Source: Aphanomyces cochlioides (lineage: Eukaryota > Oomycota > Saprolegniomycetes > Saprolegniales > Verrucalvaceae). From it: a stretch of 64,000 nt of DNA. Shown in pieces: positions 17,368 to 64,000 of this stretch (its first letter is position 1; every line of letters starts with the position of its first letter). Both the position numbers and the translations under genes were made by a program. A model generated the notes under the pieces. It was not told the DNA's origin. It saw nothing but the letters and a program-made list of their open reading frames with translations, and made no database searches. Location: positions 1,577,309-1,641,308 of the forward strand of contig JAHQRK010000018.1 in assembly GCA_019828595.1 (NCBI GenBank), in the 5' to 3' direction.

Positions 17368-17409
17368 GACAGATTGCAATATGAATGTTGGTTGGTGCTC
17401 ATTTAACAC

Positions 17410-18118: not shown

Positions 18119-18120
18119 TA

Positions 18121-18438: not shown

Positions 18439-18440
18439 TA

Positions 18441-18770
18441 CTTTCACATAGATTCCATTTCTTTCCATTCGATTGGTTAAAATTTTAACAATTTATGAGT
18501 GCCCCGTCGAGCAACTATATCGGTGGCCGAGAAGTTGAGAGTCATACAGGAATATGGCAACTCCATGAATGTGTAAGCCCTGTGAGCTGCGCAGCTCCGA
18601 CTTCCATCTCCAGAATCGCAACCAACGACGTCGACAGCTATGAGAACCATCGACCGATCTCTCTGTGCTGTCCTTCGATCATTGGCACTTTATTGTCCAA
18701 TCGGATCACTCTAGGTACAAATCTTTCCGAAAACCGAATTTCTTTCAAACAATTCATGAGTAAAAATATA
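18441..18770. other. Host flank of the tandem array, nothing recognised
   Basis: Lies between the MITE and the first array unit. An open frame of 94 codons runs to 18,779 and crosses the array boundary, so it is not credible as a conserved gene. The sequence bordering the array reads AAAATATA then CTAG. Confidence 0.4.
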
Positions 18771-18799
18771 CTAGGGTGAGGCCAGGGCTACGCCCCTGG
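18771..18799 (-). terminator. Helitron-type 3' terminus (hairpin plus CTAG), representative copy
   Basis: On the minus strand the stem CCAGGG/CCCTGG (18,799-18,794 and 18,787-18,782) with a 6-nt loop is followed by 7 nt and the terminal CTAG (18,774-18,771). Host T follows at 18,770. In Helitrons such a hairpin acts as the rolling-circle termination signal. The same structure recurs at the low-coordinate end of each unit; unit 23 has one extra base in the spacer and unit 24 has lost the CTAG. Confidence 0.75.
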
Positions 18800-19796
18800 G
18801 TGGAGCGTTTTGCTTTGGAAATAACAAAGATTTGCTCACACACATGAAACGTTTGAAGCCATACTATGAATTTTGAATTTGATTCAGGCCCAGTTCGAAG
18901 TAAAAAATAAGTTAACGCCGAGCATACTGATTGGCTACTGTTGACTGACGAATATTATTTTTCGTCAGGAGATAAATCATGTCCTGACCACAAAACCGTC
19001 GACTCGTACCGAAAGAAAAATAAATTATCCAATCAGAGATCATATTATTTTGAAACTAAGGAGACAGTATTTACTTCGCACTCCTTATTCACTTCTTTCT
19101 TATTTTACTTCGAATTGGCCTCCATAGTTTCCCTGTTTTGTTGTGCAAAAATGCCAGTACTTGCACAGATAACACGAACGACTTATCAGTGATAATACAG
19201 ACGCTCGAGGTACCCAGTCCTATTCACGGCGCATTTGACGGCAAGACAATGATGACCATGCGCTTAGATGATGCTCAAGGCGACTACCAACATGTCGGAG
19301 ACATAGTATATCTAGATGGAGAAAGGCGAACCTTTTATGGTAATCTACGGTTGTGTCCAATGTGATCGTGGCATGTGGTGGGTGGAGGTTCTAGGAGCAC
19401 GGTCAAGAAGGTCAATGTAGATGCTGAAATTTCAGTTGATAATGTGATTGGATCGTAAAAATACTGTGGATATGTGTCCCGCCACTTAAGCTTAACATAA
19501 TGTGGTTTGCCAGAAAATACTACTCATTTCTTTCATAAATCGTACAGAAGTCGCGGTATTTATTAAACATCACATTGTTTAATATCGCGTATTGAACTCG
19601 TACATCCAATGAGTTGAAACTTTGATACTGGGTAATACACCTGCTAAGTATTCATGCAACACCCCTTAAGTGATTCATGATACTCGCCGTAGGCCCACTA
19701 TCAACAGTGGTACTCCATCAAAAAAAGTAGCACCATCAGTTGCAATAGTGGTAACCAACGTTACACATTGTCCCCTTACTGTAAAAAAGTTGAACT

Positions 19797-20156
19797 ATGG
19801 GAGAGGATTTACTCGTCCAAAGTCAATATGAAAATACAGTAAAAACACACGTTTTAGCTGTCCCTGGCTGCTCTATGAAAATGTCCGGTATTTCGAGCCA
19901 AAAAATAACATGGCCCTACTTCGTAACATTCGCATATCGCGTCGGAATTCGCCTTTCGGAGTCCAAGCCTCTGGCCAGAGTATGGCTTAAAGTGGCAGAA
20001 AGGGCTCGTCACCCTACTGCACAGTGTGTTGACCGCTTATTCAGCGGCCTTTTCTGCCCGAGTGAAGCTATCCTAAGACATGCATCTCACCTTGCATCGT
20101 CCCAGAAAAAACCAACTGCCATTCATCTCGTCTTTGGCAGGTATTATTTTAAATAG
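19797..20156 (+). other. Recurrent 119-codon ORF of unknown status in each unit (first copy shown)
   Basis: The longest open frame in the unit, antisense to the proposed Helitron direction: MGEDLLVQSQYENTVKTHVL... to ...VFGRYYFK. I recognise no domain, signal peptide or membrane segment. It is intact in units 1-22 with only R/W and Y/H substitutions, which reflects unit identity and not proven selection. It is broken in units 23 and 24. It could be captured host sequence or chance. The 83-codon (18,941-19,192) and 75-codon frames nearby are equally unsupported. Confidence 0.3.
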
Positions 20157-20398
20157 CAGGACAATATTTTCATTTTGTATGTGGAATTGTTTGATCATTA
20201 ATATTATCGACAACTGGCACGTCCAGCATCATGGGTGCATCGTGACAAAACATGACACCAAGTATTGAGGAACACACCAAATAATTGACAAATGGATATT
20301 TGCCATGGATATCGGGCAATACAACCTTGAGTGGTCAAATTAGTTGATGTTGGTTGGAAGTGCTGACTACTATGAACGAACTTGTCTCAAATTACTCT

Positions 20399-20578
20399 TT
20401 TTTTGACTTGGCGTTTGTATGTAAAAATTGCTCATTTTTGTACTTGGAATTTGTATGTCAAAATGACTCATTTTTTGACTTGACGTTTGTATGTAAAAAT
20501 TACTCATTTTTGTACTTAGAATTTGTATATAAAAATTGCTCATTTGTTGACTTGACGTTTGTATGTAAAAATTACTCT
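20399..20578. repeat. Five 36-bp tandem subrepeats inside the unit
   Basis: Five consecutive 36-mers of the form TTTTTGACTTGACGTTTGTA followed by TGTAAAAATTACTCA, alternating GACTTGACG and TACTTAGAA versions. They lie 50-230 bp from the element's 5' end. Because 36 is divisible by three and the unit has no stop in one frame, they create a spurious 77-codon plus-strand ORF (20,354-20,587). The block recurs in all complete units; unit 24 has lost part of it. Confidence 0.85.
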
Positions 20579-20627
20579 CGTACTTAGTCTCGTACTTACG
20601 TGTTGCGTTAGAGCTTTAAGTAATAGA

Positions 20628-22484
20628 CTAGGGTGAGGCCAGGGCTACGCCCCTGGGTGGAGCGTTTTGCTTTGGAAATAACAAAGATTTGCTCACACAC
20701 ATGAAACGTTTGAAGCCATACTATGAATTTTGAATTTGATTCAGGCCCAGTTCGAAGTAAAAAATAAGTTAACGCCGAGCATACTGATTGGCTACTGTTG
20801 ACTGACGAATATTATTTTTCGTCAGGAGATAAATCATGTCCTGACCACAAAACCGTCGACTCGTACCGAAAGAAAAATAAATTATCCAATCAGAGATCAT
20901 ATTATTTTGAAACTAAGGAGACAGTATTTACTTCGCACTCCTTATTCACTTCTTTCTTATTTTACTTCGAATTGGCCTCCATAGTTTCCCTGTTTTGTTG
21001 TGCAAAAATGCCAGTACTTGCACAGATAACACGAACGACTTATCAGTGATAATACAGACGCTCGAGGTACCCAGTCCTATTCACGGCGCATTTGACGGCA
21101 AGACAATGATGACCATGCGCTTAGATGATGCTCAAGGCGACTACCAACATGTCGGAGACATAGTATATCTAGATGGAGAAAGGCGAACCTTTTATGGTAA
21201 TCTACGGTTGTGTCCAATGTGATCGTGGCATGTGGTGGGTGGAGGTTCTAGGAGCACGGTCAAGAAGGTCAATGTAGATGCTGAAATTTCAGTTGATAAT
21301 GTGATTGGATCGTAAAAATACTGTGGATATGTGTCCCGCCACTTAAGCTTAACATAATGTGGTTTGCCAGAAAATACTACTCATTTCTTTCATAAATCGT
21401 ACAGAAGTCGCGGTATTTATTAAACATCACATTGTTTAATATCGCGTATTGAACTCGTACATCCAATGAGTTGAAACTTTGATACTGGGTAATACACCTG
21501 CTAAGTATTCATGCAACACCCCTTAAGTGATTCATGATACTCGCCGTAGGCCCACTATCAACAGTGGTACTCCATCAAAAAAAGTAGCACCATCAGTTGC
21601 AATAGTGGTAACCAACGTTACACATTGTCCCCTTACTGTAAAAAAGTTGAACTATGGGAGAGGATTTACTCGTCCAAAGTCAATATGAAAATACAGTAAA
21701 AACACACGTTTTAGCTGTCCCTGGCTGCTCTATGAAAATGTCCGGTATTTCGAGCCAAAAAATAACATGGCCCTACTTCGTAACATTCGCATATCGCGTC
21801 GGAATTCGCCTTTCGGAGTCCAAGCCTCTGGCCAGAGTATGGCTTAAAGTGGCAGAAAGGGCTCGTCACCCTACTGCACAGTGTGTTGACCGCTTATTCA
21901 GCGGCCTTTTCTGCCCGAGTGAAGCTATCCTAAGACATGCATCTCACCTTGCATCGTCCCAGAAAAAACCAACTGCCATTCATCTCGTCTTTGGCAGGTA
22001 TTATTTTAAATAGCAGGACAATATTTTCATTTTGTATGTGGAATTGTTTGATCATTAATATTATCGACAACTGGCACGTCCAGCATCATGGGTGCATCGT
22101 GACAAAACATGACACCAAGTATTGAGGAACACACCAAATAATTGACAAATGGATATTTGCCATGGATATCGGGCAATACAACCTTGAGTGGTCAAATTAG
22201 TTGATGTTGGTTGGAAGTGCTGACTACTATGAACGAACTTGTCTCAAATTACTCTTTTTTTGACTTGGCGTTTGTATGTAAAAATTGCTCATTTTTGTAC
22301 TTGGAATTTGTATGTCAAAATGACTCATTTTTTGACTTGACGTTTGTATGTAAAAATTACTCATTTTTGTACTTAGAATTTGTATATAAAAATTGCTCAT
22401 TTGTTGACTTGACGTTTGTATGTAAAAATTACTCTCGTACTTAGTCTCGTACTTACGTGTTGCGTTAGAGCTTTAAGTAATAGA
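20628..22484 (-). mobile_element. Array unit 2
   Basis: 1,857 bp, basic form, seemingly identical to unit 1. Confidence 0.8.
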
Positions 22485-24341: not shown

Positions 24342-24713
24342 CTAGGGTGAGGCCAGGGCTACGCCCCTGGGTGGAGCGTTTTGCTTTGGAAATAACAAAG
24401 ATTTGCTCACACACATGAAACGTTTGAAGCCATACTATGAATTTTGAATTTGATTCAGGCCCAGTTCGAAGTAAAAAATAAGTTAACGCCGAGCATACTG
24501 ATTGGCTACTGTTGACTGACGAATATTATTTTTCGTCAGGAGATAAATCATGTCCTGACCACAAAACCGTCGACTCGTACCGAAAGAAAAATAAATTATC
24601 CAATCAGAGATCATATTATTTTGAAACTAAGGAGACAGTATTTACTTCGCACTCCTTATTCACTTCTTTCTTATTTTACTTCGAATTGGCCTCCATAGTT
24701 TCCCTGTTTTGTT

Positions 24714-24830
24714 GTGCAAAAATGCCAGTACTTGCACAGATAACACGAACGACTTATCAGTGATAATACAGACGCTATTATCACTGATAAGTCGTTCGTG
24801 TTATCTGTGCAAGTACTGGCATTTTTGCAC
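24714..24830. repeat. 55-bp perfect inverted duplication, unit 4
   Basis: Arms 24,714-24,768 and 24,776-24,830 are exact reverse complements around a 7-nt loop, CAGACGC. Relative to basic units, two bases (TC) are replaced by the 55-nt arm and one C is lost downstream (net +52). Confidence 0.9.
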
Positions 24831-24882
24831 GAGGTACCAGTCCTATTCACGGCGCATTTGACGGCAAGACAATGATGACCAT

Positions 24883-24966
24883 GCGCTTAGATGATGCTCA
24901 AGGCGACTATGCGCTTAGATGATGCTCAAGGCGACTATGCGCTTAGATGATGCTCAAGGCGACTAC
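24883..24966. repeat. 28-bp VNTR, three copies (unit 4)
   Basis: Three tandem copies of GCGCTTAGATGATGCTCAAG plus GCGACTAT, the last ending in C. Basic units (1, 2, 3, 9, 17) have one copy; most others have two. Confidence 0.9.
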
Positions 24967-28191: not shown

Positions 28192-30128
28192 CTAGGGTGA
28201 GGCCAGGGCTACGCCCCTGGGTGGAGCGTTTTGCTTTGGAAATAACAAAGATTTGCTCACACACATGAAACGTTTGAAGCCATACTATGAATTTTGAATT
28301 TGATTCAGGCCCAGTTCGAAGTAAAAAATAAGTTAACGCCGAGCATACTGATTGGCTACTGTTGACTGACGAATATTATTTTTCGTCAGGAGATAAATCA
28401 TGTCCTGACCACAAAACCGTCGACTCGTACCGAAAGAAAAATAAATTATCCAATCAGAGATCATATTATTTTGAAACTAAGGAGACAGTATTTACTTCGC
28501 ACTCCTTATTCACTTCTTTCTTATTTTACTTCGAATTGGCCTCCATAGTTTCCCTGTTTTGTTGTGCAAAAATGCCAGTACTTGCACAGATAACACGAAC
28601 GACTTATCAGTGATAATACAGACGCTATTATCACTGATAAGTCGTTCGTGTTATCTGTGCAAGTACTGGCATTTTTGCACGAGGTACCAGTCCTATTCAC
28701 GGCGCATTTGACGGCAAGACAATGATGACCATGCGCTTAGATGATGCTCAAGGCGACTATGCGCTTAGATGATGCTCAAGGCGACTACCAACATGTCGGA
28801 GACATAGTATATCTAGATGGAGAAAGGCGAACCTTTTATGGTAATCTACGGTTGTGTCCAATGTGATCGTGGCATGTGGTGGGTGGAGGTTCTAGGAGCA
28901 CGGTCAAGAAGGTCAATGTAGATGCTGAAATTTCAGTTGATAATGTGATTGGATCGTAAAAATACTGTGGATATGTGTCCCGCCACTTAAGCTTAACATA
29001 ATGTGGTTTGCCAGAAAATACTACTCATTTCTTTCATAAATCGTACAGAAGTCGCGGTATTTATTAAACATCACATTGTTTAATATCGCGTATTGAACTC
29101 GTACATCCAATGAGTTGAAACTTTGATACTGGGTAATACACCTGCTAAGTATTCATGCAACACCCCTTAAGTGATTCATGATACTCGCCGTAGGCCCACT
29201 ATCAACAGTGGTACTCCATCAAAAAAAGTAGCACCATCAGTTGCAATAGTGGTAACCAACGTTACACATTGTCCCCTTACTGTAAAAAAGTTGAACTATG
29301 GGAGAGGATTTACTCGTCCAAAGTCAATATGAAAATACAGTAAAAACACACGTTTTAGCTGTCCCTGGCTGCTCTATGAAAATGTCCGGTATTTCGAGCC
29401 AAAAAATAACATGGCCCTACTTCGTAACATTCGCATATCGCGTCGGAATTCGCCTTTCGGAGTCCAAGCCTCTGGCCAGAGTATGGCTTAAAGTGGCAGA
29501 AAGGGCTCGTCACCCTACTGCACAGTGTGTTGACCGCTTATTCAGCGGCCTTTTCTGCCCGAGTGAAGCTATCCTAAGACATGCATCTCACCTTGCATCG
29601 TCCCAGAAAAAACCAACTGCCATTCATCTCGTCTTTGGCAGGTATTATTTTAAATAGCAGGACAATATTTTCATTTTGTATGTGGAATTGTTTGATCATT
29701 AATATTATCGACAACTGGCACGTCCAGCATCATGGGTGCATCGTGACAAAACATGACACCAAGTATTGAGGAACACACCAAATAATTGACAAATGGATAT
29801 TTGCCATGGATATCGGGCAATACAACCTTGAGTGGTCAAATTAGTTGATGTTGGTTGGAAGTGCTGACTACTATGAACGAACTTGTCTCAAATTACTCTT
29901 TTTTTGACTTGGCGTTTGTATGTAAAAATTGCTCATTTTTGTACTTGGAATTTGTATGTCAAAATGACTCATTTTTTGACTTGACGTTTGTATGTAAAAA
30001 TTACTCATTTTTGTACTTAGAATTTGTATATAAAAATTGCTCATTTGTTGACTTGACGTTTGTATGTAAAAATTACTCTCGTACTTAGTCTCGTACTTAC
30101 GTGTTGCGTTAGAGCTTTAAGTAATAGA
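28192..30128 (-). mobile_element. Array unit 6
   Basis: 1,937 bp: inverted duplication plus two VNTR copies. Confidence 0.8.
28564..28680. repeat. 55-bp inverted duplication, unit 6
   Basis: Same breakpoints and sequence as in unit 4, so it spread by copying and is not a fresh event. Confidence 0.9.
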
Positions 30129-33950: not shown

Positions 33951-35807
33951 CTAGGGTGAGGCCAGGGCTACGCCCCTGGGTGGAGCGTTTTGCTTTGGAA
34001 ATAACAAAGATTTGCTCACACACATGAAACGTTTGAAGCCATACTATGAATTTTGAATTTGATTCAGGCCCAGTTCGAAGTAAAAAATAAGTTAACGCCG
34101 AGCATACTGATTGGCTACTGTTGACTGACGAATATTATTTTTCGTCAGGAGATAAATCATGTCCTGACCACAAAACCGTCGACTCGTACCGAAAGAAAAA
34201 TAAATTATCCAATCAGAGATCATATTATTTTGAAACTAAGGAGACAGTATTTACTTCGCACTCCTTATTCACTTCTTTCTTATTTTACTTCGAATTGGCC
34301 TCCATAGTTTCCCTGTTTTGTTGTGCAAAAATGCCAGTACTTGCACAGATAACACGAACGACTTATCAGTGATAATACAGACGCTCGAGGTACCCAGTCC
34401 TATTCACGGCGCATTTGACGGCAAGACAATGATGACCATGCGCTTAGATGATGCTCAAGGCGACTACCAACATGTCGGAGACATAGTATATCTAGATGGA
34501 GAAAGGCGAACCTTTTATGGTAATCTACGGTTGTGTCCAATGTGATCGTGGCATGTGGTGGGTGGAGGTTCTAGGAGCACGGTCAAGAAGGTCAATGTAG
34601 ATGCTGAAATTTCAGTTGATAATGTGATTGGATCGTAAAAATACTGTGGATATGTGTCCCGCCACTTAAGCTTAACATAATGTGGTTTGCCAGAAAATAC
34701 TACTCATTTCTTTCATAAATCGTACAGAAGTCGCGGTATTTATTAAACATCACATTGTTTAATATCGCGTATTGAACTCGTACATCCAATGAGTTGAAAC
34801 TTTGATACTGGGTAATACACCTGCTAAGTATTCATGCAACACCCCTTAAGTGATTCATGATACTCGCCGTAGGCCCACTATCAACAGTGGTACTCCATCA
34901 AAAAAAGTAGCACCATCAGTTGCAATAGTGGTAACCAACGTTACACATTGTCCCCTTACTGTAAAAAAGTTGAACTATGGGAGAGGATTTACTCGTCCAA
35001 AGTCAATATGAAAATACAGTAAAAACACACGTTTTAGCTGTCCCTGGCTGCTCTATGAAAATGTCCGGTATTTCGAGCCAAAAAATAACATGGCCCTACT
35101 TCGTAACATTCGCATATCGCGTCGGAATTCGCCTTTCGGAGTCCAAGCCTCTGGCCAGAGTATGGCTTAAAGTGGCAGAAAGGGCTCGTCACCCTACTGC
35201 ACAGTGTGTTGACCGCTTATTCAGCGGCCTTTTCTGCCCGAGTGAAGCTATCCTAAGACATGCATCTCACCTTGCATCGTCCCAGAAAAAACCAACTGCC
35301 ATTCATCTCGTCTTTGGCAGGTATTATTTTAAATAGCAGGACAATATTTTCATTTTGTATGTGGAATTGTTTGATCATTAATATTATCGACAACTGGCAC
35401 GTCCAGCATCATGGGTGCATCGTGACAAAACATGACACCAAGTATTGAGGAACACACCAAATAATTGACAAATGGATATTTGCCATGGATATCGGGCAAT
35501 ACAACCTTGAGTGGTCAAATTAGTTGATGTTGGTTGGAAGTGCTGACTACTATGAACGAACTTGTCTCAAATTACTCTTTTTTTGACTTGGCGTTTGTAT
35601 GTAAAAATTGCTCATTTTTGTACTTGGAATTTGTATGTCAAAATGACTCATTTTTTGACTTGACGTTTGTATGTAAAAATTACTCATTTTTGTACTTAGA
35701 ATTTGTATATAAAAATTGCTCATTTGTTGACTTGACGTTTGTATGTAAAAATTACTCTCGTACTTAGTCTCGTACTTACGTGTTGCGTTAGAGCTTTAAG
35801 TAATAGA
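33951..35807 (-). mobile_element. Array unit 9
   Basis: 1,857 bp, basic form, an isolated single-VNTR unit among longer ones. Confidence 0.8.
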
Positions 35808-47221: not shown

Positions 47222-49105
47222 CTAGGGTGAGGCCAGGGCTACGCCCCTGGGTGGAGCGTTTTGCTTTGGAAATAACAAAGATTTGCTCACACACATGAAA
47301 CGTTTGAAGCCATACTATGAATTTTGAATTTGATTCAGGCCCAGTTCGAAGTAAAAAATAAGTTAACGCCGAGCATACTGATTGGCTACTGTTGACTGAC
47401 GAATATTATTTTTCGTCAGGAGATAAATCATGTCCTGACCACAAAACCGTCGACTCGTACCGAAAGAAAAATAAATTATCCAATCAGAGATCATATTATT
47501 TTGAAACTAAGGAGACAGTATTTACTTCGCACTCCTTATTCACTTCTTTCTTATTTTACTTCGAATTGGCCTCCATAGTTTCCCTGTTTTGTTGTGCAAA
47601 AATGCCAGTACTTGCACAGATAACACGAACGACTTATCAGTGATAATACAGACGCTCGAGGTACCCAGTCCTATTCACGGCGCATTTGACGGCAAGACAA
47701 TGATGACCATGCGCTTAGATGATGCTCAAGGCGACTATGCGCTTAGATGATGCTCAAGGCGACTACCAACATGTCGGAGACATAGTATATCTAGATGGAG
47801 AAAGGCGAACCTTTTATGGTAATCTACGGTTGTGTCCAATGTGATCGTGGCATGTGGTGGGTGGAGGTTCTAGGAGCACGGTCAAGAAGGTCAATGTAGA
47901 TGCTGAAATTTCAGTTGATAATGTGATTGGATCGTAAAAATACTGTGGATATGTGTCCCGCCACTTAAGCTTAACATAATGTGGTTTGCCAGAAAATACT
48001 ACTCATTTCTTTCATAAATCGTACAGAAGTCGCGGTATTTATTAAACATCACATTGTTTAATATCGCGTATTGAACTCGTACATCCAATGAGTTGAAACT
48101 TTGATACTGGGTAATACACCTGCTAAGTATTCATGCAACACCCCTTAAGTGATTCATGATACTCGCCGTAGGCCCACTATCAACAGTGGTACTCCATCAA
48201 AAAAGTAGCACCATCAGTTGCAATAGTGGTAACCAACGTTACACATTGTCCCCTTACTGTAAAAAAGTTGAACTATGGGAGAGGATTTACTCGTCCAAAG
48301 TCAATATGAAAATACAGTAAAAACACACGTTTTAGCTGTCCCTGGCTGCTCTATGAAAATGTCCGGTATTTCGAGCCAAAAAATAACATGGCCCTACTTC
48401 GTAACATTCGCATATCGCGTCGGAATTCGCCTTTCGGAGTCCAAGCCTCTGGCCAGAGTATGGCTTAAAGTGGCAGAATGGGCTCGTCACCCTACTGCAC
48501 AGTGTGTTGACCGCTTATTCAGCGGCCTTTTCTGCCCGAGTGAAGCTATCCTAAGACATGCATCTCACCTTGCATCGTCCCAGAAAAAACCAACTGCCAT
48601 TCATCTCGTCTTTGGCAGGCATTATTTTAAATAGCAGGACAATATTTTCATTTTGTATGTGGAATTGTTTGATCATTAATATTATCGACAACTGGCACGT
48701 CCAGCATCATGGGTGCATCGTGACAAAACATGACACCAAGTATTGAGGAACACACCAAATAATTGACAAATGGATATTTGCCATGGATATCGGGCAATAC
48801 AACCTTGAGTGGTCAAATTAGTTGATGTTGGTTGGAAGTGCTGACTACTATGAACGAACTTGTCTCAAATTACTCTTTTTTTGACTTGGCGTTTGTATGT
48901 AAAAATTGCTCATTTTTGTACTTGGAATTTGTATGTCAAAATGACTCATTTTTTGACTTGACGTTTGTATGTAAAAATTACTCATTTTTGTACTTAGAAT
49001 TTGTATATAAAAATTGCTCATTTGTTGACTTGACGTTTGTATGTAAAAATTACTCTCGTACTTAGTCTCGTACTTACGTGTTGCGTTAGAGCTTTAAGTA
49101 ATAGA
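47222..49105 (-). mobile_element. Array unit 16
   Basis: 1,884 bp: like unit 15, plus a private A-to-T change near 48,479 (R to W in the 119-codon frame). Confidence 0.8.
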
Positions 49106-50961
49106 CTAGGGTGAGGCCAGGGCTACGCCCCTGGGTGGAGCGTTTTGCTTTGGAAATAACAAAGATTTGCTCACACACATGAAACGTTTGAAGCCATACT
49201 ATGAATTTTGAATTTGATTCAGGCCCAGTTCGAAGTAAAAAATAAGTTAACGCCGAGCATACTGATTGGCTACTGTTGACTGACGAATATTATTTTTCGT
49301 CAGGAGATAAATCATGTCCTGACCACAAAACCGTCGACTCGTACCGAAAGAAAAATAAATTATCCAATCAGAGATCATATTATTTTGAAACTAAGGAGAC
49401 AGTATTTACTTCGCACTCCTTATTCACTTCTTTCTTATTTTACTTCGAATTGGCCTCCATAGTTTCCCTGTTTTGTTGTGCAAAAATGCCAGTACTTGCA
49501 CAGATAACACGAACGACTTATCAGTGATAATACAGACGCTCGAGGTACCCAGTCCTATTCACGGCGCATTTGACGGCAAGACAATGATGACCATGCGCTT
49601 AGATGATGCTCAAGGCGACTACCAACATGTCGGAGACATAGTATATCTAGATGGAGAAAGGCGAACCTTTTATGGTAATCTACGGTTGTGTCCAATGTGA
49701 TCGTGGCATGTGGTGGGTGGAGGTTCTAGGAGCACGGTCAAGAAGGTCAATGTAGATGCTGAAATTTCAGTTGATAATGTGATTGGATCGTAAAAATACT
49801 GTGGATATGTGTCCCGCCACTTAAGCTTAACATAATGTGGTTTGCCAGAAAATACTACTCATTTCTTTCATAAATCGTACAGAAGTCGCGGTATTTATTA
49901 AACATCACATTGTTTAATATCGCGTATTGAACTCGTACATCCAATGAGTTGAAACTTTGATACTGGGTAATACACCTGCTAAGTATTCATGCAACACCCC
50001 TTAAGTGATTCATGATACTCGCCGTAGGCCCACTATCAACAGTGGTACTCCATCAAAAAAGTAGCACCATCAGTTGCAATAGTGGTAACCAACGTTACAC
50101 ATTGTCCCCTTACTGTAAAAAAGTTGAACTATGGGAGAGGATTTACTCGTCCAAAGTCAATATGAAAATACAGTAAAAACACACGTTTTAGCTGTCCCTG
50201 GCTGCTCTATGAAAATGTCCGGTATTTCGAGCCAAAAAATAACATGGCCCTACTTCGTAACATTCGCATATCGCGTCGGAATTCGCCTTTCGGAGTCCAA
50301 GCCTCTGGCCAGAGTATGGCTTAAAGTGGCAGAAAGGGCTCGTCACCCTACTGCACAGTGTGTTGACCGCTTATTCAGCGGCCTTTTCTGCCCGAGTGAA
50401 GCTATCCTAAGACATGCATCTCACCTTGCATCGTCCCAGAAAAAACCAACTGCCATTCATCTCGTCTTTGGCAGGTATTATTTTAAATAGCAGGACAATA
50501 TTTTCATTTTGTATGTGGAATTGTTTGATCATTAATATTATCGACAACTGGCACGTCCAGCATCATGGGTGCATCGTGACAAAACATGACACCAAGTATT
50601 GAGGAACACACCAAATAATTGACAAATGGATATTTGCCATGGATATCGGGCAATACAACCTTGAGTGGTCAAATTAGTTGATGTTGGTTGGAAGTGCTGA
50701 CTACTATGAACGAACTTGTCTCAAATTACTCTTTTTTTGACTTGGCGTTTGTATGTAAAAATTGCTCATTTTTGTACTTGGAATTTGTATGTCAAAATGA
50801 CTCATTTTTTGACTTGACGTTTGTATGTAAAAATTACTCATTTTTGTACTTAGAATTTGTATATAAAAATTGCTCATTTGTTGACTTGACGTTTGTATGT
50901 AAAAATTACTCTCGTACTTAGTCTCGTACTTACGTGTTGCGTTAGAGCTTTAAGTAATAGA
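49106..50961 (-). mobile_element. Array unit 17
   Basis: 1,856 bp: one VNTR copy with the shortened A-run, a recombinant of basic and unit-15-like forms. Confidence 0.8.
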
Positions 50962-52846
50962 CTAGGGTGAGGCCAGGGCTACGCCCCTGGGTGGAGCGTT
51001 TTGCTTTGGAAATAACAAAGATTTGCTCACACACATGAAACGTTTGAAGCCATACTATGAATTTTGAATTTGATTCAGGCCCAGTTCGAAGTAAAAAATA
51101 AGTTAACGCCGAGCATACTGATTGGCTACTGTTGACTGACGAATATTATTTTTCGTCAGGAGATAAATCATGTCCTGACCACAAAACCGTCGACTCGTAC
51201 CGAAAGAAAAATAAATTATCCAATCAGAGATCATATTATTTTGAAACTAAGGAGACAGTATTTACTTCGCACTCCTTATTCACTTCTTTCTTATTTTACT
51301 TCGAATTGGCCTCCATAGTTTCCCTGTTTTGTTGTGCAAAAATGCCAGTACTTGCACAGATAACACGAATGACTTATCAGTGATAATACAGACGCTCGAG
51401 GTACCCAGTCCTATTCACGGCGCATTTGACGGCAAGACAATGATGACCATGCGCTTAGATGATGCTCAAGGCGACTATGCGCTTAGATGATGCTCAAGGC
51501 GACTACCAACATGTCGGAGACATAGTATATCTAGATGGAGAAAGGCGAACCTTTTATGGTAATCTACGGTTGTGTCCAATGTGATCGTGGCATGTGGTGG
51601 GTGGAGGTTCTAGGAGCACGGTCAAGAAGGTCAATGTAGATGCTGAAATTTCAGTTGATAATGTGATTGGATCGTAAAAATACTGTGGATATGTGTCCCG
51701 CCACTTAAGCTTAACATAATGTGGTTTGCCAGAAAATACTACTCATTTCTTTCATAAATCGTACAGAAGTCGCGGTATTTATTAAACATCACATTGTTTA
51801 ATATCGCGTATTGAACTCGTACATCCAATGAGTTGAAACTTTGATACTGGGTAATACACCTGCTAAGTATTCATGCAACACCCCTTAAGTGATTCATGAT
51901 ACTCGCCGTAGGCCCACTATCAACAGTGGTACTCCATCAAAAAAAGTAGCACCATCAGTTGCAATAGTGGTAACCAACGTTACACATTGTCCCCTTACTG
52001 TAAAAAAGTTGAACTATGGGAGAGGATTTACTCGTCCAAAGTCAATATGAAAATACAGTAAAAACACACGTTTTAGCTGTCCCTGGCTGCTCTATGAAAA
52101 TGTCCGGTATTTCGAGCCAAAAAATAACATGGCCCTACTTCGTAACATTCGCATATCGCGTCGGAATTCGCCTTTCGGAGTCCAAGCCTCTGGCCAGAGT
52201 ATGGCTTAAAGTGGCAGAAAGGGCTCGTCACCCTACTGCACAGTGTGTTGACCGCTTATTCAGCGGCCTTTTCTGCCCGAGTGAAGCTATCCTAAGACAT
52301 GCATCTCACCTTGCATCGTCCCAGAAAAAACCAACTGCCATTCATCTCGTCTTTGGCAGGTATTATTTTAAATAGCAGGACAATATTTTCATTTTGTATG
52401 TGGAATTGTTTGATCATTAATATTATCGACAACTGGCACGTCCAGCATCATGGGTGCATCGTGACAAAACATGACACCAAGTATTGAGGAACACACCAAA
52501 TAATTGACAAATGGATATTTGCCATGGATATCGGGCAATACAACCTTGAGTGGTCAAATTAGTTGATGTTGGTTGGAAGTGCTGACTACTATGAACGAAC
52601 TTGTCTCAAATTACTCTTTTTTTGACTTGGCGTTTGTATGTAAAAATTGCTCATTTTTGTACTTGGAATTTGTATGTCAAAATGACTCATTTTTTGACTT
52701 GACGTTTGTATGTAAAAATTACTCATTTTTGTACTTAGAATTTGTATATAAAAATTGCTCATTTGTTGACTTGACGTTTGTATGTAAAAATTACTCTCGT
52801 ACTTAGTCTCGTACTTACGTGTTGCGTTAGAGCTTTAAGTAATAGA
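50962..52846 (-). mobile_element. Array unit 18
   Basis: 1,885 bp: two VNTR copies with CGAATGACTT but without GTGAGCGTGG or GGCATTATT. Confidence 0.8.
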
Positions 52847-54745
52847 CTAGGGTGAGGCCAGGGCTACGCCCCTGGGTGGAGCGTTTTGCTTTGGAAATAA
52901 CAAAGATTTGCTCACACACATGAAACGTTTGAAGCCATACTATGAATTTTGAATTTGATTCAGGCCCAGTTCGAAGTAAAAAATAAGTTAACGCCGAGCA
53001 TACTGATTGGCTACTGTTGACTGACGAATATTATTTTTCGTCAGGAGATAAATCATGTCCTGACCACAAAACCGTCGACTCGTACCAAAAGAAAAATAAA
53101 TTATCCAATCAGAGATCATATTATTTTGAAACTAAGGAGACAGTATTTACTTCGCACTCCTTATTCACTTCTTTCTTATTTTACTTCGAATTGGCCTCCA
53201 TAGTTTCCCTGTTTTGTTGTGCAAAAATGCCAGTGCACTTGCACAGATAATCAGTGATAATACAGACGCTATTATCACTGATAATACAAGACGCTCGAGG
53301 TACCCAGTCCTATTCACGGCGCATTTGACGGCAAGACAATGATGACCATGCGCTTAGATGATGCTCAAGGCGACTATGCGCTTAGATGATGCTCAAGGCG
53401 ACTACCAACATGTCGGAGACATAGTATATCTAGATGGAGAAAGGCGAACCTTTTATGGTAATCTACGGTTGTGTCCAATGTGATCGTGGCATGTGGTGGG
53501 TGGAGGTTCTAGGAGCACGGTCAAGAAGGTCAATGTAGATGCTGAAATTTCAGTTGATAATGTGATTGGATCGTAAAAATACTGTGGATATGTGTCCCGC
53601 CACTTAAGCTTAACATAATGTGGTTTGCCAGAAAATACTACTCATTTCTTTCATAAATCGTACAGAAGTCGCGGTATTTATTAAACATCACATTGTTTAA
53701 TATCGCGTATTGAACTCGTACATCCAATGAGTTGAAACTTTGATACTGGGTAATACACCTGCTAAGTATTCATGCAACACCCCTTAAGTGATTCATGATA
53801 CTCGCCGTAGGCCCACTATCAACAGTGGTACTCCATCAAAAAAAGTAGCACCATCAGTTGCAATAGTGGTAACCAACGTTACACATTGTCCCCTTACTGT
53901 AAAAAAGTTGAACTATGGGAGAGGATTTACTCGTCCAAAGTCAATATGAAAATACAGTAAAAACACACGTTTTAGCTGTCCCTGGCTGCTCTATGAAAAT
54001 GTCCGGTATTTCGAGCCAAAAAATAACATGGCCCTACTTCGTAACATTCGCATATCGCGTCGGAATTCGCCTTTCGGAGTCCAAGCCTCTGGCCAGAGTA
54101 TGGCTTAAAGTGGCAGAAAGGGCTCGTCACCCTACTGCACAGTGTGTTGACCGCTTATTCAGCGGCCTTTTCTGCCCGAGTGAAGCTATCCTAAGACATG
54201 CATCTCACCTTGCATCGTCCCAGAAAAAACCAACTGCCATTCATCTCGTCTTTGGCAGGTATTATTTTAAATAGCAGGACAATATTTTCATTTTGTATGT
54301 GGAATTGTTTGATCATTAATATTATCGACAACTGGCACGTCCAGCATCATGGGTGCATCGTGACAAAACATGACACCAAGTATTGAGGAACACACCAAAT
54401 AATTGACAAATGGATATTTGCCATGGATATCGGGCAATACAACCTTGAGTGGTCAAATTAGTTGATGTTGGTTGGAAGTGCTGACTACTATGAACGAACT
54501 TGTCTCAAATTACTCTTTTTTTGACTTGGCGTTTGTATGTAAAAATTGCTCATTTTTGTACTTGGAATTTGTATGTCAAAATGACTCATTTTTTGACTTG
54601 ACGTTTGTATGTAAAAATTACTCATTTTTGTACTTAGAATTTGTATATAAAAATTGCTCATTTGTTGACTTGACGTTTGTATGTAAAAATTACTCTCGTA
54701 CTTAGTCTCGTACTTACGTGTTGCGTTAGAGCTTTAAGTAATAGA
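52847..54745 (-). mobile_element. Array unit 19
   Basis: 1,899 bp: two VNTR copies and a distinct short inverted repeat near 53,250-53,282; also CAAAAGAAAA in place of CGAAAGAAAA near 53,086. Confidence 0.8.
53250..53282. repeat. Short 13-bp inverted duplication, unit 19
   Basis: ATCAGTGATAATA and its reverse complement around the same CAGACGC loop, followed by a partial repeat of the downstream sequence. Its outer breakpoints differ from the 55-bp form, so it is either an independent event or a collapsed derivative. Confidence 0.8.
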
Positions 54746-56629
54746 CTAGGGTGAGGCCAGGGCTACGCCCCTGGGTGGAGCGTTTTGCTTTGGAAATAAC
54801 AAAGATTTGCTCACACACATGAAACGTTTGAAGCCATACTATGAATTTTGAATTTGATTCAGGCCCAGTTCGAAGTAAAAAATAAGTTAACGCCGAGCAT
54901 ACTGATTGGCTACTGTTGACTGACGAATATTATTTTTCGTCAGGAGATAAATCATGTCCTGACCACAAAACCGTCGACTCGTACCGAAAGAAAAATAAAT
55001 TATCCAATCAGAGATCATATTATTTTGAAACTAAGGAGATAGTATTTACTTCGCACTCCTTATTCACTTCTTTCTTATTTTACTTCGAATTGGCCTCCAT
55101 AGTTTCCCTGTTTTGTTGTGCAAAAATGCCAGTACTTGCACAGATAACACGAACGACTTATCAGTGATAATACAGACGCTCGAGGTACCCAGTCCTATTC
55201 ACGGCGCATTTGACGGCAAGACAATGATGACCATGCGCTTAGATGATGCTCAAGGCGACTATGCGCTTAGATGATGCTCAAGGCGACTACCAACATGTCG
55301 GAGACATAGTATATCTAGATGGAGAAAGGCGAACCTTTTATGGTAATCTACGGTTGTGTCCAATGTGATCGTGGCATGTGGTGGGTGGAGGTTCTAGGAG
55401 CACGGTCAAGAAGGTCAATGTAGATGCTGAAATTTCAGTTGATAATGTGATTGGATCGTAAAAATACTGTGGATATGTGTCCCGCCACTTAAGCTTAACA
55501 TAATGTGGTTTGCCAGAAAATACTACTCATTTCTTTCATAAATCGTACAGAAGTCGCGGTATTTATTAAACATCACATTGTTTAATATCGCGTATTGAAC
55601 TCGTACATCCAATGAGTTGAAACTTTGATACTGGGTAATACACCTGCTAAGTATTCATGCAACACCCCTTAAGTGATTCATGATACTCGCCGTAGGCCCA
55701 CTATCAACAGTGGTACTCCATCAAAAAAGTAGCACCATCAGTTGCAATAGTGGTAACCAACGTTACACATTGTCCCCTTACTGTAAAAAAGTTGAACTAT
55801 GGGAGAGGATTTACTCGTCCAAAGTCAATATGAAAATACAGTAAAAACACACGTTTTAGCTGTCCCTGGCTGCTCTATGAAAATGTCCGGTATTTCGAGC
55901 CAAAAAATAACATGGCCCTACTTCGTAACATTCGCATATCGCGTCGGAATTCGCCTTTCGGAGTCCAAGCCTCTGGCCAGAGTATGGCTTAAAGTGGCAG
56001 AAAGGGCTCGTCACCCTACTGCACAGTGTGTTGACCGCTTATTCAGCGGCCTTTTCTGCCCGAGTGAAGCTATCCTAAGACATGCATCTCACCTTGCATC
56101 GTCCCAGAAAAAACCAACTGCCATTCATCTCGTCTTTGGCAGGTATTATTTTAAATAGCAGGACAATATTTTCATTTTGTATGTGGAATTGTTTGATCAT
56201 TAATATTATCGACAACTGGCACGTCCAGCATCATGGGTGCATCGTGACAAAACATGACACCAAGTATTGAGGAACACACCAAATAATTGACAAATGGATA
56301 TTTGCCATGGATATCGGGCAATACAACCTTGAGTGGTCAAATTAGTTGATGTTGGTTGGAAGTGCTGACTACTATGAACGAACTTGTCTCAAATTACTCT
56401 TTTTTTGACTTGGCGTTTGTATGTAAAAATTGCTCATTTTTGTACTTGGAATTTGTATGTCAAAATGACTCATTTTTTGACTTGACGTTTGTATGTAAAA
56501 ATTACTCATTTTTGTACTTAGAATTTGTATATAAAAATTGCTCATTTGTTGACTTGACGTTTGTATGTAAAAATTACTCTCGTACTTAGTCTCGTACTTA
56601 CGTGTTGCGTTAGAGCTTTAAGTAATAGA
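54746..56629 (-). mobile_element. Array unit 20
   Basis: 1,884 bp: two VNTR copies, GAGATAGTAT and the shortened A-run. Confidence 0.8.
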
Positions 56630-58514
56630 CTAGGGTGAGGCCAGGGCTACGCCCCTGGGTGGAGCGTTTTGCTTTGGAAATAACAAAGATTTGCTCACAC
56701 ACATGAAACGTTTGAAGCCATACTATGAATTTTGAATTTGATTCAGGCCCAGTTCGAAGTAAAAAATAAGTTAACGCCGAGCATACTGATTGGCTACTGT
56801 TGACTGACGAATATTATTTTTCGTCAGGAGATAAATCATGTCCTGACCACAAAACCGTCGACTCGTACCGAAAGAAAAATAAATTATCCAATCAGAGATC
56901 ATATTATTTTGAAACTAAGGAGACAGTATTTACTTCGCACTCCTTATTCACTTCTTTCTTATTTTACTTCGAATTGGCCTCCATAGTTTCCCTGTTTTGT
57001 TGTGCAAAAATGCCAGTACTTGCACAGATAACACGAATGACTTATCAGTGATAATACAGACGCTCGAGGTACCCAGTCCTATTCACGGCGCATTTGACGG
57101 CAAGACAATGATGACCATGCGCTTAGATGATGCTCAAGGCGACTATGCGCTTAGATGATGCTCAAGGCGACTACCAACATGTCGGAGACATAGTATATCT
57201 AGATGGAGAAAGGCGAACCTTTTATGGTAATCTACGGTTGTGTCCAATGTGAGCGTGGCATGTGGTGGGTGGAGGTTCTAGGAGCACGGTCAAGAAGGTC
57301 AATGTAGATGCTGAAATTTCAGTTGATAATGTGATTGGATCGTAAAAATACTGTGGATATGTGTCCCGCCACTTAAGCTTAACATAATGTGGTTTGCCAG
57401 AAAATACTACTCATTTCTTTCATAAATCGTACAGAAGTCGCGGTATTTATTAAACATCACATTGTTTAATATCGCGTATTGAACTCGTACATCCAATGAG
57501 TTGAAACTTTGATACTGGGTAATACACCTGCTAAGTATTCATGCAACACCCCTTAAGTGATTCATGATACTCGCCGTAGGCCCACTATCAACAGTGGTAC
57601 TCCATCAAAAAAAGTAGCACCATCAGTTGCAATAGTGGTAACCAACGTTACACATTGTCCCCTTACTGTAAAAAAGTTGAACTATGGGAGAGGATTTACT
57701 CGTCCAAAGTCAATATGAAAATACAGTAAAAACACACGTTTTAGCTGTCCCTGGCTGCTCTATGAAAATGTCCGGTATTTCGAGCCAAAAAATAACATGG
57801 CCCTACTTCGTAACATTCGCATATCGCGTCGGAATTCGCCTTTCGGAGTCCAAGCCTCTGGCCAGAGTATGGCTTAAAGTGGCAGAAAGGGCTCGTCACC
57901 CTACTGCACAGTGTGTTGACCGCTTATTCAGCGGCCTTTTCTGCCCGAGTGAAGCTATCCTAAGACATGCATCTCACCTTGCATCGTCCCAGAAAAAACC
58001 AACTGCCATTCATCTCGTCTTTGGCAGGCATTATTTTAAATAGCAGGACAATATTTTCATTTTGTATGTGGAATTGTTTGATCATTAATATTATCGACAA
58101 CTGGCACGTCCAGCATCATGGGTGCATCGTGACAAAACATGACACCAAGTATTGAGGAACACACCAAATAATTGACAAATGGATATTTGCCATGGATATC
58201 GGGCAATACAACCTTGAGTGGTCAAATTAGTTGATGTTGGTTGGAAGTGCTGACTACTATGAACGAACTTGTCTCAAATTACTCTTTTTTTGACTTGGCG
58301 TTTGTATGTAAAAATTGCTCATTTTTGTACTTGGAATTTGTATGTCAAAATGACTCATTTTTTGACTTGACGTTTGTATGTAAAAATTACTCATTTTTGT
58401 ACTTAGAATTTGTATATAAAAATTGCTCATTTGTTGACTTGACGTTTGTATGTAAAAATTACTCTCGTACTTAGTCTCGTACTTACGTGTTGCGTTAGAG
58501 CTTTAAGTAATAGA
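56630..58514 (-). mobile_element. Array unit 21
   Basis: 1,885 bp: the same three diagnostic variants as unit 14. Confidence 0.8.
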
Positions 58515-60397
58515 CTAGGGTGAGGCCAGGGCTACGCCCCTGGGTGGAGCGTTTTGCTTTGGAAATAACAAAGATTTGCTCACACACATGAAACGTTTGA
58601 AGCCATACTATGAATTTTGAATTTGATTCAGGCCCAGTTCGAAGTAAAAAATAAGTTAACGCCGAGCATACTGATTGGCTACTGTTGACTGACGAATATT
58701 ATTTTTCGTCAGGAGATAAATCATGTCCTGACCACAAAACCGTCGACTCGTACCGAAAGAAAAATAAATTATCCAATCAGAGATCATATTATTTTGAAAC
58801 TAAGGAGACAGTATTTACTTCGCACTCCTTATTCACTTCTTTCTTATTTTACTTCGAATTGGCCTCCATAGTTTCCCTGTTTTGTTGTGCAAAAATGCCA
58901 GTACTTGCACAGATAACACGAATGACTTATCAGTGATAATACAGACGCTCGAGGTACCCAGTCCTATTCACGGCGCATTTGACGGCAAGACAATGATGAC
59001 CATGCGCTTAGATGATGCTCAAGGCGACTATGCGCTTAGATGATGCTCAAGGCGACTACCAACATGTCGGAGACATAGTATATCTAGATGGAGAAAGGCG
59101 AACCTTTTATGGTAATCTACGGTTGTGTCCAATGTGAGCGTGGCATGTGGTGGTGGAGGTTCTAGGAGCACGGTCAAGAAGGTCAATGTAGATGCTGAAA
59201 TTTCAGTTGATAATGTGATTGGATCGTAAAAATACTGTGGATATGTGTCCCGCCACTTAAGCTTAACATAATGTGGTTTGCCAGAAAATACTACTCATTT
59301 CTTTCATAAATCGTACAGAAGTCGCGGTATTTATTAAACATCACATTGTTTAATATCGCGTATTGAACTCGTACATCCAATGAGTTGAAACTTTGATACT
59401 GGGTAATACACCTGCTAAGTATTCATGCAACACCCCTTAAGTGATTCATGATACTCGCCGTAGGCCCACTATCAACAGTGGTACTCCATCAAAAAAAGTA
59501 GCACCATCAGTTGCAATAGTGGTAACCAACGTTACACATTGTCCCCTTACTGTAAAAAAGTTGAACTATGGGAGAGGATTTACTCGTCCAAAGTCAATAT
59601 GAAAATACAGTAAAAACACACGTTTTAGCTGTCCCTGGCTGCTCTATGAAAATGTCCGGTATTTCGAGCCAAAAAATAACATGGCCCTACTTCGTAACAT
59701 TCGCATATCGCGTCGGAATTCGCCTTTCGGAGTCCAAGCCTCTGGCCAGAGTATGGCTTAAAGTGGCAGAAAGGGCTCGTCACCCTACTGCACAGTGTGT
59801 TGACCGCTTATTCAGCGGCCTTTTCTGCCCGAGTGAAGCTATCCTAAGACATGCATCTCACCTTGCATCGTCCCAGAAAAAACCAACTGCCATTCATCTC
59901 GTCTTTGGCAGGCATTATTTTAAATAGCAGGACAATATTTTCATTTTGTATGTGGAATTGTTTGATCATTAATATTATCGACAACTGGCACGTCCAGCAT
60001 CATGGGTGCATCGTGACAAAACATGACACCAAGTATTGAGGAACACACCAAATAATTGACAAATGGATATTTGCCATGGATATCGGGCAATACAACCTTG
60101 AGTGGTCAAATTAGTTGATGTTGGTTGGAAGTGCTGACTACTATGAACGAACTTGTCTCAAATTACTCTTTTTTTGACTTGGCGTTTGTATGTAAAAATT
60201 GCTCATTTTTGTACTTGGAATTTGTATGTCAAAATGACTCATTTTTTGACTTGACGTTTGTATGTAAAAATTACTCATTTTTGTACTTAGAATTTGTATA
60301 TAAAAATTGCTCATTTGTTGACTTGACGTTTGTATGTAAAAATTACTCTCGTACTTAGTTCGTACTTACGTGTTGCGTTAGAGCTTTAAGTAATAGA
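58515..60397 (-). mobile_element. Array unit 22
   Basis: 1,883 bp: variants of unit 14 plus one-base losses near 59,150 and 60,360. Confidence 0.8.
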
Positions 60398-62276
60398 CTA
60401 GGGGTGAGGCCAGGGCTACGCCCCTGGGTGGAGCGTTTTGCTTTGGAAATAACAAAGATTTGCTCACACACATGAAACGTTTGAAGCCATACTATGAATT
60501 TTGAATTTGATTCAGGCCCAGTTCGAAGTAAAAAATAAGTTAACGCCGAGCATACTGATTGGCTACTGTTGACTGACGAATATTATTTTTCGTCAGGAGA
60601 TAAATCATGTCCTGACCACAAAACCGTCGACTCGTACCGAAAGAAAAATAAATTATCCAATCAGAGATCATATTATTTTGAAACTAAGGAGACAGTATTT
60701 ACTTCGCACTCCTTATTCACTTCTTTCTTATTTTACTTCGAATTGGCCTCCATAGTTTCCCTGTTTTGTTGTGCAAAAATGCCAGTACTTGCACAGATAA
60801 CACGAAACGACTTATCAGTGATAATACAGACGCTCGAGGTACCCAGTCCTATTCACGGCGCATTTGACGGCAAGACAATGATGACCATGCGCTTAGATGA
60901 TGCTCAAGGCGACTATGCGCTTAGATGATGCTCAAGGCGACTACCAACATGTCGGAGACATAGTATATCTAGATGGAGAAAGGCGAACCTTTTATGGTAA
61001 TCTACGGTTGTGTCCAATGTGATCGTGGCATGTGGTGGTGGAGGTTTAGGAGCACGGTCAAGAAGGTCAATGTAGATGCTGAAATTTCAGTTGATAATGT
61101 GATTGGATCGTAAAAATACTGTGGATATGTGTCCCGCCACTTAAGCTTAACATAATGTGGTTTGCCAGAAAATACTACTCATTTCTTTCATAAATCGTAC
61201 AGAAGTCGCGGTATTTATTAAACATCACATTGTTTAATATCGCGTATTGAACTCGTACATCCAATGAGTTGAAACTTTGATACTGGGTAATACACCTGCT
61301 AAAGTATTCATGCAACACCCCTTAAGTGATTCATGATACTCGCCGTAGGCCCACTATCAACAGTGGTACTCCATCAAAAAAAGTAGCACCATCAGTTGCA
61401 ATAGTGGTAACCAACGTTACACATTGTCCCCTTACTGTAAAAAAGTTGAACTATGGGAGAGGATTTACTCGTCCAAAGTCAATATGAAAATACAGTAAAA
61501 ACACACGTTTTAGCTGTCCCTGGCTGCTCTATGAAAATGTCCGGTATTTCGAGCCAAAAATAACATGGCCCTACTTCGTAACATTCGCATATCGCGTCGG
61601 AATTCGCCTTTCGGAGTCCAAGCCTCTGGCCAGAGTATGGCTTAAAGTGGCAGAAAGGGTCGTCACCCTACTGCACGTGTGTCGACTGTTATCCAGCGGC
61701 CTTTTCTGCCCGAGTGAAGCTATCCTAAGACATGCATCTCACCTTGATTCGTCCTACAAACCAAACTGCCATTCATCTCGTCTTTGGCAGGCATTATTTT
61801 AAATAGCAGGACAATATTTTCATTTTGTATGTGGAATTGTTTGATCATTAGATTATCTACAACTGGCACGTCCAGCATCATGGGTGCATCGTGACAAAAC
61901 ATGACACCAAGTATTGAGGAACACACCAAAATAATTGACAAATGGATATTTGCCATGGATATCGGGCAATACAACCTTGAGTGGTCAAATTAGTTGATGT
62001 TGGTTGGAAGTGCTGACTATGATGAACGAACTTGCTCCAAATTACTCTTTTTTTGACTTGGCGTTTGTATGTAAAAATTGCTCATTTTTGTACTTGAATT
62101 TGTAATGTCAAGCTTACTCATTTTTGACTTGACGTTTGTATGTAAAAATTACTCATTTTTGTACTTAGAATTTGTATATAAAAATTGCTCATTTGTTGAC
62201 TTGACGTTTGTATGTAAAAATTACTCTCGTACTTAGTCTCGTACTTACGTGTTGCGTTAGAGCTTTAAGTAATAGA
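60398..62276 (-). mobile_element. Array unit 23 (degraded)
   Basis: About 1,879 bp: an extra G in the terminal spacer, many one-base indels after 61,040 and substitutions around 61,670-61,760. The 119-codon frame is broken. Confidence 0.7.
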
Positions 62277-64000
62277 ATGAGGCCAGGCTAGGCTACGCCC
62301 CTGGGTGGAGCGTTTTGCTTTGGAAATAACAAAGATTTGCTCACACACATGAAACGTTTGAAGCCATACTATGAATTTTGAATTGATTCAGGCCCAGTTC
62401 GAAGTAAAAAATAAGTTAAGCCGAGCATAATTGGCTACTGTTGACTGACTATTTTTCGTCAGGAGATAAATCATGTCCTTACCACAAAACCGTCTGACTC
62501 GTCCGAAAGAAAAATAAATTATCCAATCAGAGATCATCTTATTTTTGAAACTAAGGAGACAGTAATTTACTTCGCACTCCTTATTCACTTCTTTCTTATT
62601 TTACTTTTGAATTGGCCTCCATAGTTTCCCTGTTTTGTTGTGCAAAAATGCCAGTATTGCGCAGATAACACGAACTACTTATCAGTGATAGAACAGACGT
62701 CTTGATACGGGTCTTATCACGGCGCATTTGACGGCGAATAATGATGACCATGCGCTTAGATACGATGCTCGAGGGCGACTGATGCGCTTAGATGATGCTC
62801 AAGGTGACTACGACATGTTGGAAGACATAGATGTGAAGATGAAGAAACGAACCTTTTATGGAATCTACGGTTGTGTCCAATGTGAGCGTGGCATGTGGTG
62901 GTGGAAGAATTCTAGGATGCCGGAAGGTTAATGAAGATGTTAAATTTCAGTTGATAATGTGATTGGATCGTAAATACTGTGGATATGTGTCCCGCCACTT
63001 AAGCTTAACATAATGTGGTTTGCCAGAAATACTACTCATTTCTTTCATAAATCGTACAGAAGTCGCGGTATTTATTAAACATCACATTGTTTAATATCGC
63101 GTATTGAACTCGTACATCCAATGAATTGAAACTTTGATACTGGGTAATACACCTGCTAAGTATTCATGCAACACCCCTTAAGTGATTCATGATACTCGCC
63201 GTAGGCCCACTATCAACAGTGGTACTCCATCAAAAGTAGCACCATCAGTTGCAATAGTGGTAACCAACGTTACACATTGTCCCCTTACTGTAAAAAGTTG
63301 AACTATGGGAGAGGATTTACTGTCCAAAGTCAATATGAAAATACAGTAAAAACACACGTTTTAGCTGTCCCTGGCTGCTCGATGAAAATGTCCGGTATTT
63401 CGAGCCAAAAAGTAACATGGCCGACTTCGTAACATTCGCATATCGCGTCGGAATTCGCCTTTCGGAGTCCAAGCCTCTGGCCAGAGTATGGCTTAAAGTG
63501 CAGAAGGGCTCGTCACCCTACTACACAGTGTGTTGACCGCTTATTCAGTGGCCTTTTCTGCCCGAGTGAAGCTATCCTAAGACATGCATCTCACCTTGCA
63601 TCGTCCCAGAAAAAACCAACTGCCATTCATCTCGTCTTTGGCAGGTATTATTTTAAATAGCAGGACAATATTTTCATTTTGTATGTGGAATTGTTTGATC
63701 ATTAATATTATCGACAACTGGCACGTCCAGCATCATGGGTGCATCGTGACAAAACATGACACCAATATTGAGGAACACACCAAGACAAATTGACAAATGG
63801 ATATTTGCCATGGATATCGGGCAATACAACCTTGAGTGGTCAAATTAGTTGATGTTGGTTGGAAGTGCTGACTACTATGAACGAACTTGTCTCAAATTAC
63901 TCTTTTTTGACTTGGCGTTTGTATGTAAAAATTGCTCATTTTTGTACTTGGAATTGTATGTAAAAATTACTCTTTTTTTGACTTGACGTTTGTATGTAAA
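62277..64000 (-). mobile_element. Array unit 24 (degraded, cut by window end)
   Basis: Incomplete. The terminal CTAG is lost (the boundary reads AATAGAATGAGGCC), indels are frequent to about 63,550, and part of the 36-bp block is missing near 63,950. Confidence 0.65.

Follow-up and report, generated by a model that had tools for sequence, protein, structure and literature searches.

The window considered here is the terminal 64 kb of contig C10 from the oomycete Aphanomyces cochlioides (assembly of 76.2 Mb in 94 contigs); it runs up to the very end of that contig and holds, from position 18771 onwards, a tandem array of a transposon unit of about 1.86 kb. With a probability of roughly 70%, I take this array to be a concatemer whose unit is a non-autonomous canonical Helitron, founded by rolling-circle copying and with its units later mixed by exchange.

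On the minus strand, from 18771 to the contig end, units of 1856-1965 bp each follow one another head to tail, with no spacer between them. Of the 24 unit starts, 23 (18771 to 60398) match CTAGG+TGAGGCC, and the 24th, near 62277, is visible in a garbled form. A first reading made from the letters alone (the sequence-only reading) had described 24 units with exact junctions; the 24 starts hold, but the junction CTAG|TC is exact in only 22 of the 23 internal cases, with the last one damaged. One of the 22, at 60396, carries an additional G just inside the 3' end. The array holds 22 copies of the hexamer GACTAG (read as CTAGTC on the minus strand), 1856-1965 bp apart; since the hexamer is not rare by itself (26 occurrences in the whole window versus 17.3 expected), the significance of the array rests on the whole unit. 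Mean identity between units is 99.9% and the minimum 99.7% (28 units compared, 8 from the window and 20 from contig C20, gaps excluded). The G+C content of the array is 40%, compared with 51-59% over the window's initial 16 kb, and the longest stop-free frame inside the unit spans 120 codons.

The array goes on beyond C10. Contig C20 opens with an array unit in the same orientation, and a stretch of more than 26 kb of the window is found there in register (Table 1). When units at 33951-58515 were compared with those at C20:1514-26114 (14 units), ten showed no difference, three showed 2-3 differences, and the unit at 52847 was an outlier with 75 differing alignment columns; eight shifted registers fitted more poorly. 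Given this unit-for-unit match, C10 and C20 would most simply be overlapping contigs of one locus, or its two haplotypes. Some 30 kb of the array are shared by the end of C10 and the start of C20, and the assembly left the two contigs unmerged. The adjacency of the two contigs is further supported by a gene family with members on both sides of the array, as translated C20 DNA past the array matches the window at 10.9-12.1 and 15.7-16.3 kb.

Taken together, eight window units (15,180 bp) and C20:1514-49717 (48,204 bp) form a joint array of 63,384 bp with 33 full units and a truncated one; four of the 33 (C20:39305-46842, 4 x 1884.5 bp) were counted from length, the sequence there being read at 39305-40300, 42000-42200 and 46000-46842. 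The concatemer of more than 45 kb in the sequence-only reading is therefore real, but it is bounded at about 63.4 kb instead of open-ended, and it resembles a satellite in being long and in consisting of almost identical, non-coding units arranged head to tail. On the C10 side its edge is a clean CTAG|T, with the host T after the outermost unit seen where it had been reported. The DNA past the C20 edge matches elsewhere only on C20, in stretches that are short or at 71%, and once on C10. A subtelomeric array, considered because of the contig terminus, is ruled out, as the array continues on C20 and then ends in other DNA, and the idea that the array runs open-ended for over 84 kb was dropped once the two contigs proved to be in register.

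Ends, relatives and insertion sites of the unit

Canonical Helitrons are defined by the ends TC...CTRR and by insertion at A|T (PMC5148889). The unit has TC as its 5' end at all exact junctions, dispersed 5' ends start with TCTATTACTTAA, and the 3' end, CTAG, fits CTRR. A hairpin whose stem measures 6 bp lies 7 nt ahead of CTAG, as first described, and hence 11 nt from the 3' end. Its folding energy is only modestly better than that of shuffled sequence (69 of 1000 shuffles were as low), and taken alone this energy is weak evidence.

Unit positions 1-1191 plus 1342-1857 or 1193-1857 match both ends of larger elements. At C2:267403-274180, positions 1-1191 (~90%) and 1648-1857 (98%) bracket two open reading frames (ORFs): the first, of 1481 aa, has the domains Helitron_like_N and PIF1, and the other has Pif1 2B and C-terminal helicase domains. 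At C1:2698204-2706439, an element read except for 2699441-2700499, positions 1-577 (with an insertion inside) and 1193-1857 bracket Rep and helicase ORFs. Matches to PF14214 and PF05970 indicate that these two are Rep-helicase partners with the same ends; among the elements read, none held all of unit 1-1191 and 1193-1857. A relative at C20:301894-307600 has the Rep part only, PF14214 has 148 matches in the genome (some of them pieces of one element), and a copy at C5:1374452-1376936, followed by T, shares the deletion of the unit and carries an insertion. As its ends are shared with Rep-helicase Helitrons while the coding region is gone, the unit is, judged by its sequence, a non-autonomous canonical Helitron, an internal-deletion derivative. 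Thus the Helitron-like element of the sequence-only reading, and the autonomous Rep-helicase element with the same termini that it had proposed to search for, are both present. The C5 and C1 copies each have an insertion of ~0.7-0.8 kb near unit position 497-504; unit positions 497-503/504 stand on both sides of these insertions and may be the target-site duplication of another transposon.

Genome-wide, the last 12 bp of the unit have 243 exact copies, versus 6 for the reversed control. The base that follows is T in 242 and another base in one; 61 of the 243 continue with T and then a base other than C, and 181 with TC, of which 167 run on as TCTATTACTTAA (the control for the longer patterns gave 0). 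These 167 exact 3'-to-5' joints include 29 in an array on C1 and 21 in the C10 part of the window's array, and many of the others adjoin evenly spaced Rep copies. Exact 5' ends without a preceding G number 213, and among the 100 of them listed the preceding base is A in 90, T in 7 and C in 3; without 36 in an array on C8 and 3 on C52, the 61 remaining listed places have 51 A, 7 T and 3 C. Some of these places repeat each other, and one of the T cases is the damaged junction of the window. Two further 5' ends outside arrays follow a G not preceded by A. Apart from some exceptions, the family as a whole keeps to the A|T rule known from canonical Helitrons; the A before the 5' end concerns the family, the 5' edge of the window's own array being truncated. 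Dispersed copies with the same termini, predicted by the sequence-only reading, are thus found as far as the T after 3' ends and the mostly A-preceded 5' ends go, but the array on C8 and C52 repeats a piece that ends inside the unit. The same reading had named target-site duplications as an argument against itself; none was visible where both edges could be compared, at the array on C1 (...GAGATCTA | array | TTCATTCT..., with host DNA outside the bars).

This C1 array (C1:2706440-2747518) comprises 29 units of 1346-1423 bp, all deletion derivatives. The Rep-helicase element stands directly ahead of them and follows a host A, and a host T comes after the last unit. The C1 unit is related to that of the window but rearranged, with inverted inner segments. 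The C8 contig ends in units of about 965-982 bp which correspond to unit positions 1 to ~1059, without the 3' end. Their joint, GTGA|TC, occurs 140 times genome-wide, and among the 100 matches listed all are on C8 and C52; it may stem from insertion of a copy into an internal A|T site, with expansion afterwards, or from a circle copied without the terminator. On C52 the unit orientation flips at around 37-39 kb, perhaps because of a palindrome or of the assembly.

Exchange between units and the origin of the array

Length classes of the unit arise from a 28-bp repeat in one to three copies and from a 52-bp inverted duplication. The latter is shared by the 1937-bp units, several of which are separated from each other, and is an inverted copy of nearby sequence, as from template switching. 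Both the 52-bp variant and single-nucleotide polymorphism (SNP) variants reappear in non-adjacent units, and the SNP pairs 485/1261 and 485/1559 occur in all four combinations (four-gamete test, 29 units). These patterns point to later exchange between units, which would have mixed the variants. At the 3' edge, the outermost three units do not differ from one another and each has one 28-bp copy; because a single copy is also found in the relatives on C1, C5, C14 and C20, this is probably the ancestral, founding form.

For the founding of the array, rolling-circle copying fits best. The RepHel of a relative could move the deletion derivative in trans; starting at TC, it would copy the strand and pass the 3' hairpin, so that several units would be made and inserted together, or alternatively a circular intermediate would be copied several times. 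Exchange between units, by unequal crossing-over or gene conversion, would then have multiplied and mixed the variants, and the 5' edge would probably have been lost later. Such a founding would explain why joints at numerous loci are exact, why the T is preserved and why a Rep-helicase element heads the C1 array, whereas the recurrence of the 52-bp and SNP variants in separated units and the four-gamete pairs would be explained by the later exchange.

Several observations do not sit well with this proposal. The 5' edge of the array is truncated and is not A|TC: at C20:49717 the unit is cut at position 895, without a TC end. The array on C8 and C52 grew large with no 3' terminator in its unit, and hence without terminator read-through. 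The four-gamete result rests on few SNPs, the rarest class being one unit in one pair and two in the other, and recurrent mutation may be an alternative source of the pattern. In addition, the similarity of neighbouring units is weakly above chance, with P = 0.027 at lag 1 and no value below 0.05 at lags 2-6. The expansion as a satellite that had been proposed from the letters alone is accordingly supported by the variants shared between separated units and by the four-gamete pairs, but how it divides between rolling-circle copying and unequal exchange is deduced and not observed.

Unequal crossing-over could also have done nearly all of the work, a chance head-to-tail dimer or two adjacent insertions growing to 34 units by ordinary recombination, with rolling-circle copying making at most the first joint. 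The mixed order of shared variants and the recombinant-looking SNP pairs agree with this, as does the array on C8 and C52, which expanded via a joint resembling a copy at an internal A|T, with no terminator passed. I nevertheless consider it unlikely, in view of the 167 exact CTAG|TC joints over many loci and of the G|T site that an insertion beside a 3' end needs, when the listed host insertions are mostly after A (51 of 61). The same preference for A speaks against repeated self-targeting, by which each new RepHel-borne copy would insert right behind the 3' terminus (CTAG|T) of one already present, so that the array grew unit by unit. Exact joints that all lie at one point, and the T after 242 of the 243 3' ends, with the T of the host site kept, are what such insertion would leave behind; it would, however, put a G before the 5' end, and only the two non-array 5' ends mentioned above follow a G without a preceding A, so that it is very unlikely overall. 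An inflation of the unit number by mis-assembly seems the least credible of all: the contig does end in the array with a damaged tail, and the overlap of C10 and C20 is unmerged, but the two contigs agree within 3 differences in 13 of 14 units, rare variants included, and leave the array into different flanking DNA that carries one gene family.

The preferred reading, a rolling-circle concatemer later mixed by exchange, could be taken further. Tentatively, and with the odds somewhat against it, a leaky 3' terminator may be the normal state in this lineage, so that concatemers would be the usual product and would have given rise to at least three satellites by two routes, one with the terminator kept (C10/C20 and C1) and one with the terminator lost (C8/C52). 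The observation cited for this is that 167 of 243 exact 3' ends lead straight into a 5' end.

Flanks and features of the window

When window:15800-18770 was searched against the genome, the host flank directly beside the array (18084..18770, no strand assigned; positions 2285-2971 of that query) had no further match among those listed. Next to it, at 16381-18083, lie stretches repeated at 40 or more other places in the genome, probably other transposons. The gene-family members with counterparts across the array on C20 are at 10956-12135 and 15737-16273; the window member tested had no Pfam match. At 12419-13378, a 319-aa protein with a likely signal peptide is predicted, also without a Pfam match, and its start after that peptide may resemble a copper monooxygenase.

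Table 1. Features of the array in the window (C10 positions counted from the first letter of the window) and of the related array on C8 and C52.
Feature	Position	Strand	Remarks
Tandem array of non-autonomous Helitron	18771..64000	-	24 unit starts, last unit cut by contig end; goes on in C20
Outermost (3'-edge) unit, 1857 bp	18771..20627	-	same sequence as next two units
3' terminus CTAG of outermost unit	18771..18774	-	host T after it
Subterminal hairpin CCAGGG-GCGTAG-CCCTGG	18782..18799	-	11 nt from 3' end
First internal junction CTAG|TC	20626..20631	-	21 more exact ones, up to 60396-60401
36/72-bp short repeats, 5' part of unit	20389..20577	-	in each unit
28-bp repeat, here three copies	24877..24965	-	copy number one to three between units
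52-bp inverted duplication of neighbouring unit sequence	28627..28678	-	example of the 1937-bp-unit variant
Stretch also at start of C20 (1514-27998)	33951..60397	-	same unit order; contig overlap or two haplotypes
Damaged last junction and partial last unit	62230..64000	-	at contig end
Array of 965-982-bp units	C8:1866249-1902082; C52:9765-71658

Comparison with known tandem Helitrons

For the centromeres of plants, Xiong and co-workers are said to have described tandem arrays of Helitrons in 2016 (as cited in PMC12628747, PMC5148889 and PMC5876387). Plants and bats are reported to have Helitrons in head-to-tail order and tandem arrays (PMC5876387), multiple tandem insertions are known from Myotis lucifugus, Drosophila, rice and maize (PMC5148889), and a model of circle copying without the terminator is credited to Xiong et al. 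in PMC12628747. With such arrays published, the sequence-only reading went too far in calling the array of the window an unusual case. Like canonical Helitrons, the element has 5'-TC, 3'-CTAG, a hairpin 11 nt from the end, a T after it and Rep-helicase partners with the same ends; unlike them, it forms a head-to-tail array of about 34 units. With the plant arrays it shares head-to-tail multimers of the kind ascribed to rolling-circle copying. Those arrays are described as mostly truncated, whereas the full units of the window all keep the 3' hairpin and CTAG, and the host here is an oomycete instead of a plant or bat. The array on C8 and C52 fits the published picture, in which 5' ends are many and 3' ends few.

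Closer to the present host, whose 19 best protein matches are to Aphanomyces euteiches at 71-90% identity, 10 of 41 satellite DNA families of A. euteiches resemble transposable elements, a Helitron included (PMC8780586), so that Helitron-like satellite DNA is common to both. That survey covered monomers of 100-500 bp, a range which excludes a full-element monomer of 1.86 kb. Satellites borne by Helitrons or Helentrons in oyster and Drosophila (PMC12628747) likewise have a rolling-circle transposon as the source of a tandem repeat; it is internal segments that repeat there, whereas here the whole element is the monomer. No Helitron array in an oomycete was described among the titles and abstract openings listed in the literature searches.

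That a transposon can turn into satellite-like DNA is thus already known, and the array of the window is a clear, well-resolved further case. New here are the 1.86-kb monomer that keeps both of its ends, the two borders of the array, and the presence of three arrays derived from Helitrons in a single Aphanomyces genome. Within this genome the path from a Rep-helicase Helitron through a deletion derivative and a concatemer to a mixed, satellite-like array can be followed, with stages represented by the C1 array headed by its Rep-helicase element, by the full units of the window which keep both ends, and by the units on C8 and C52 without a 3' end. Whether terminator read-through or unequal crossing-over makes such arrays becomes a testable question in this genome.

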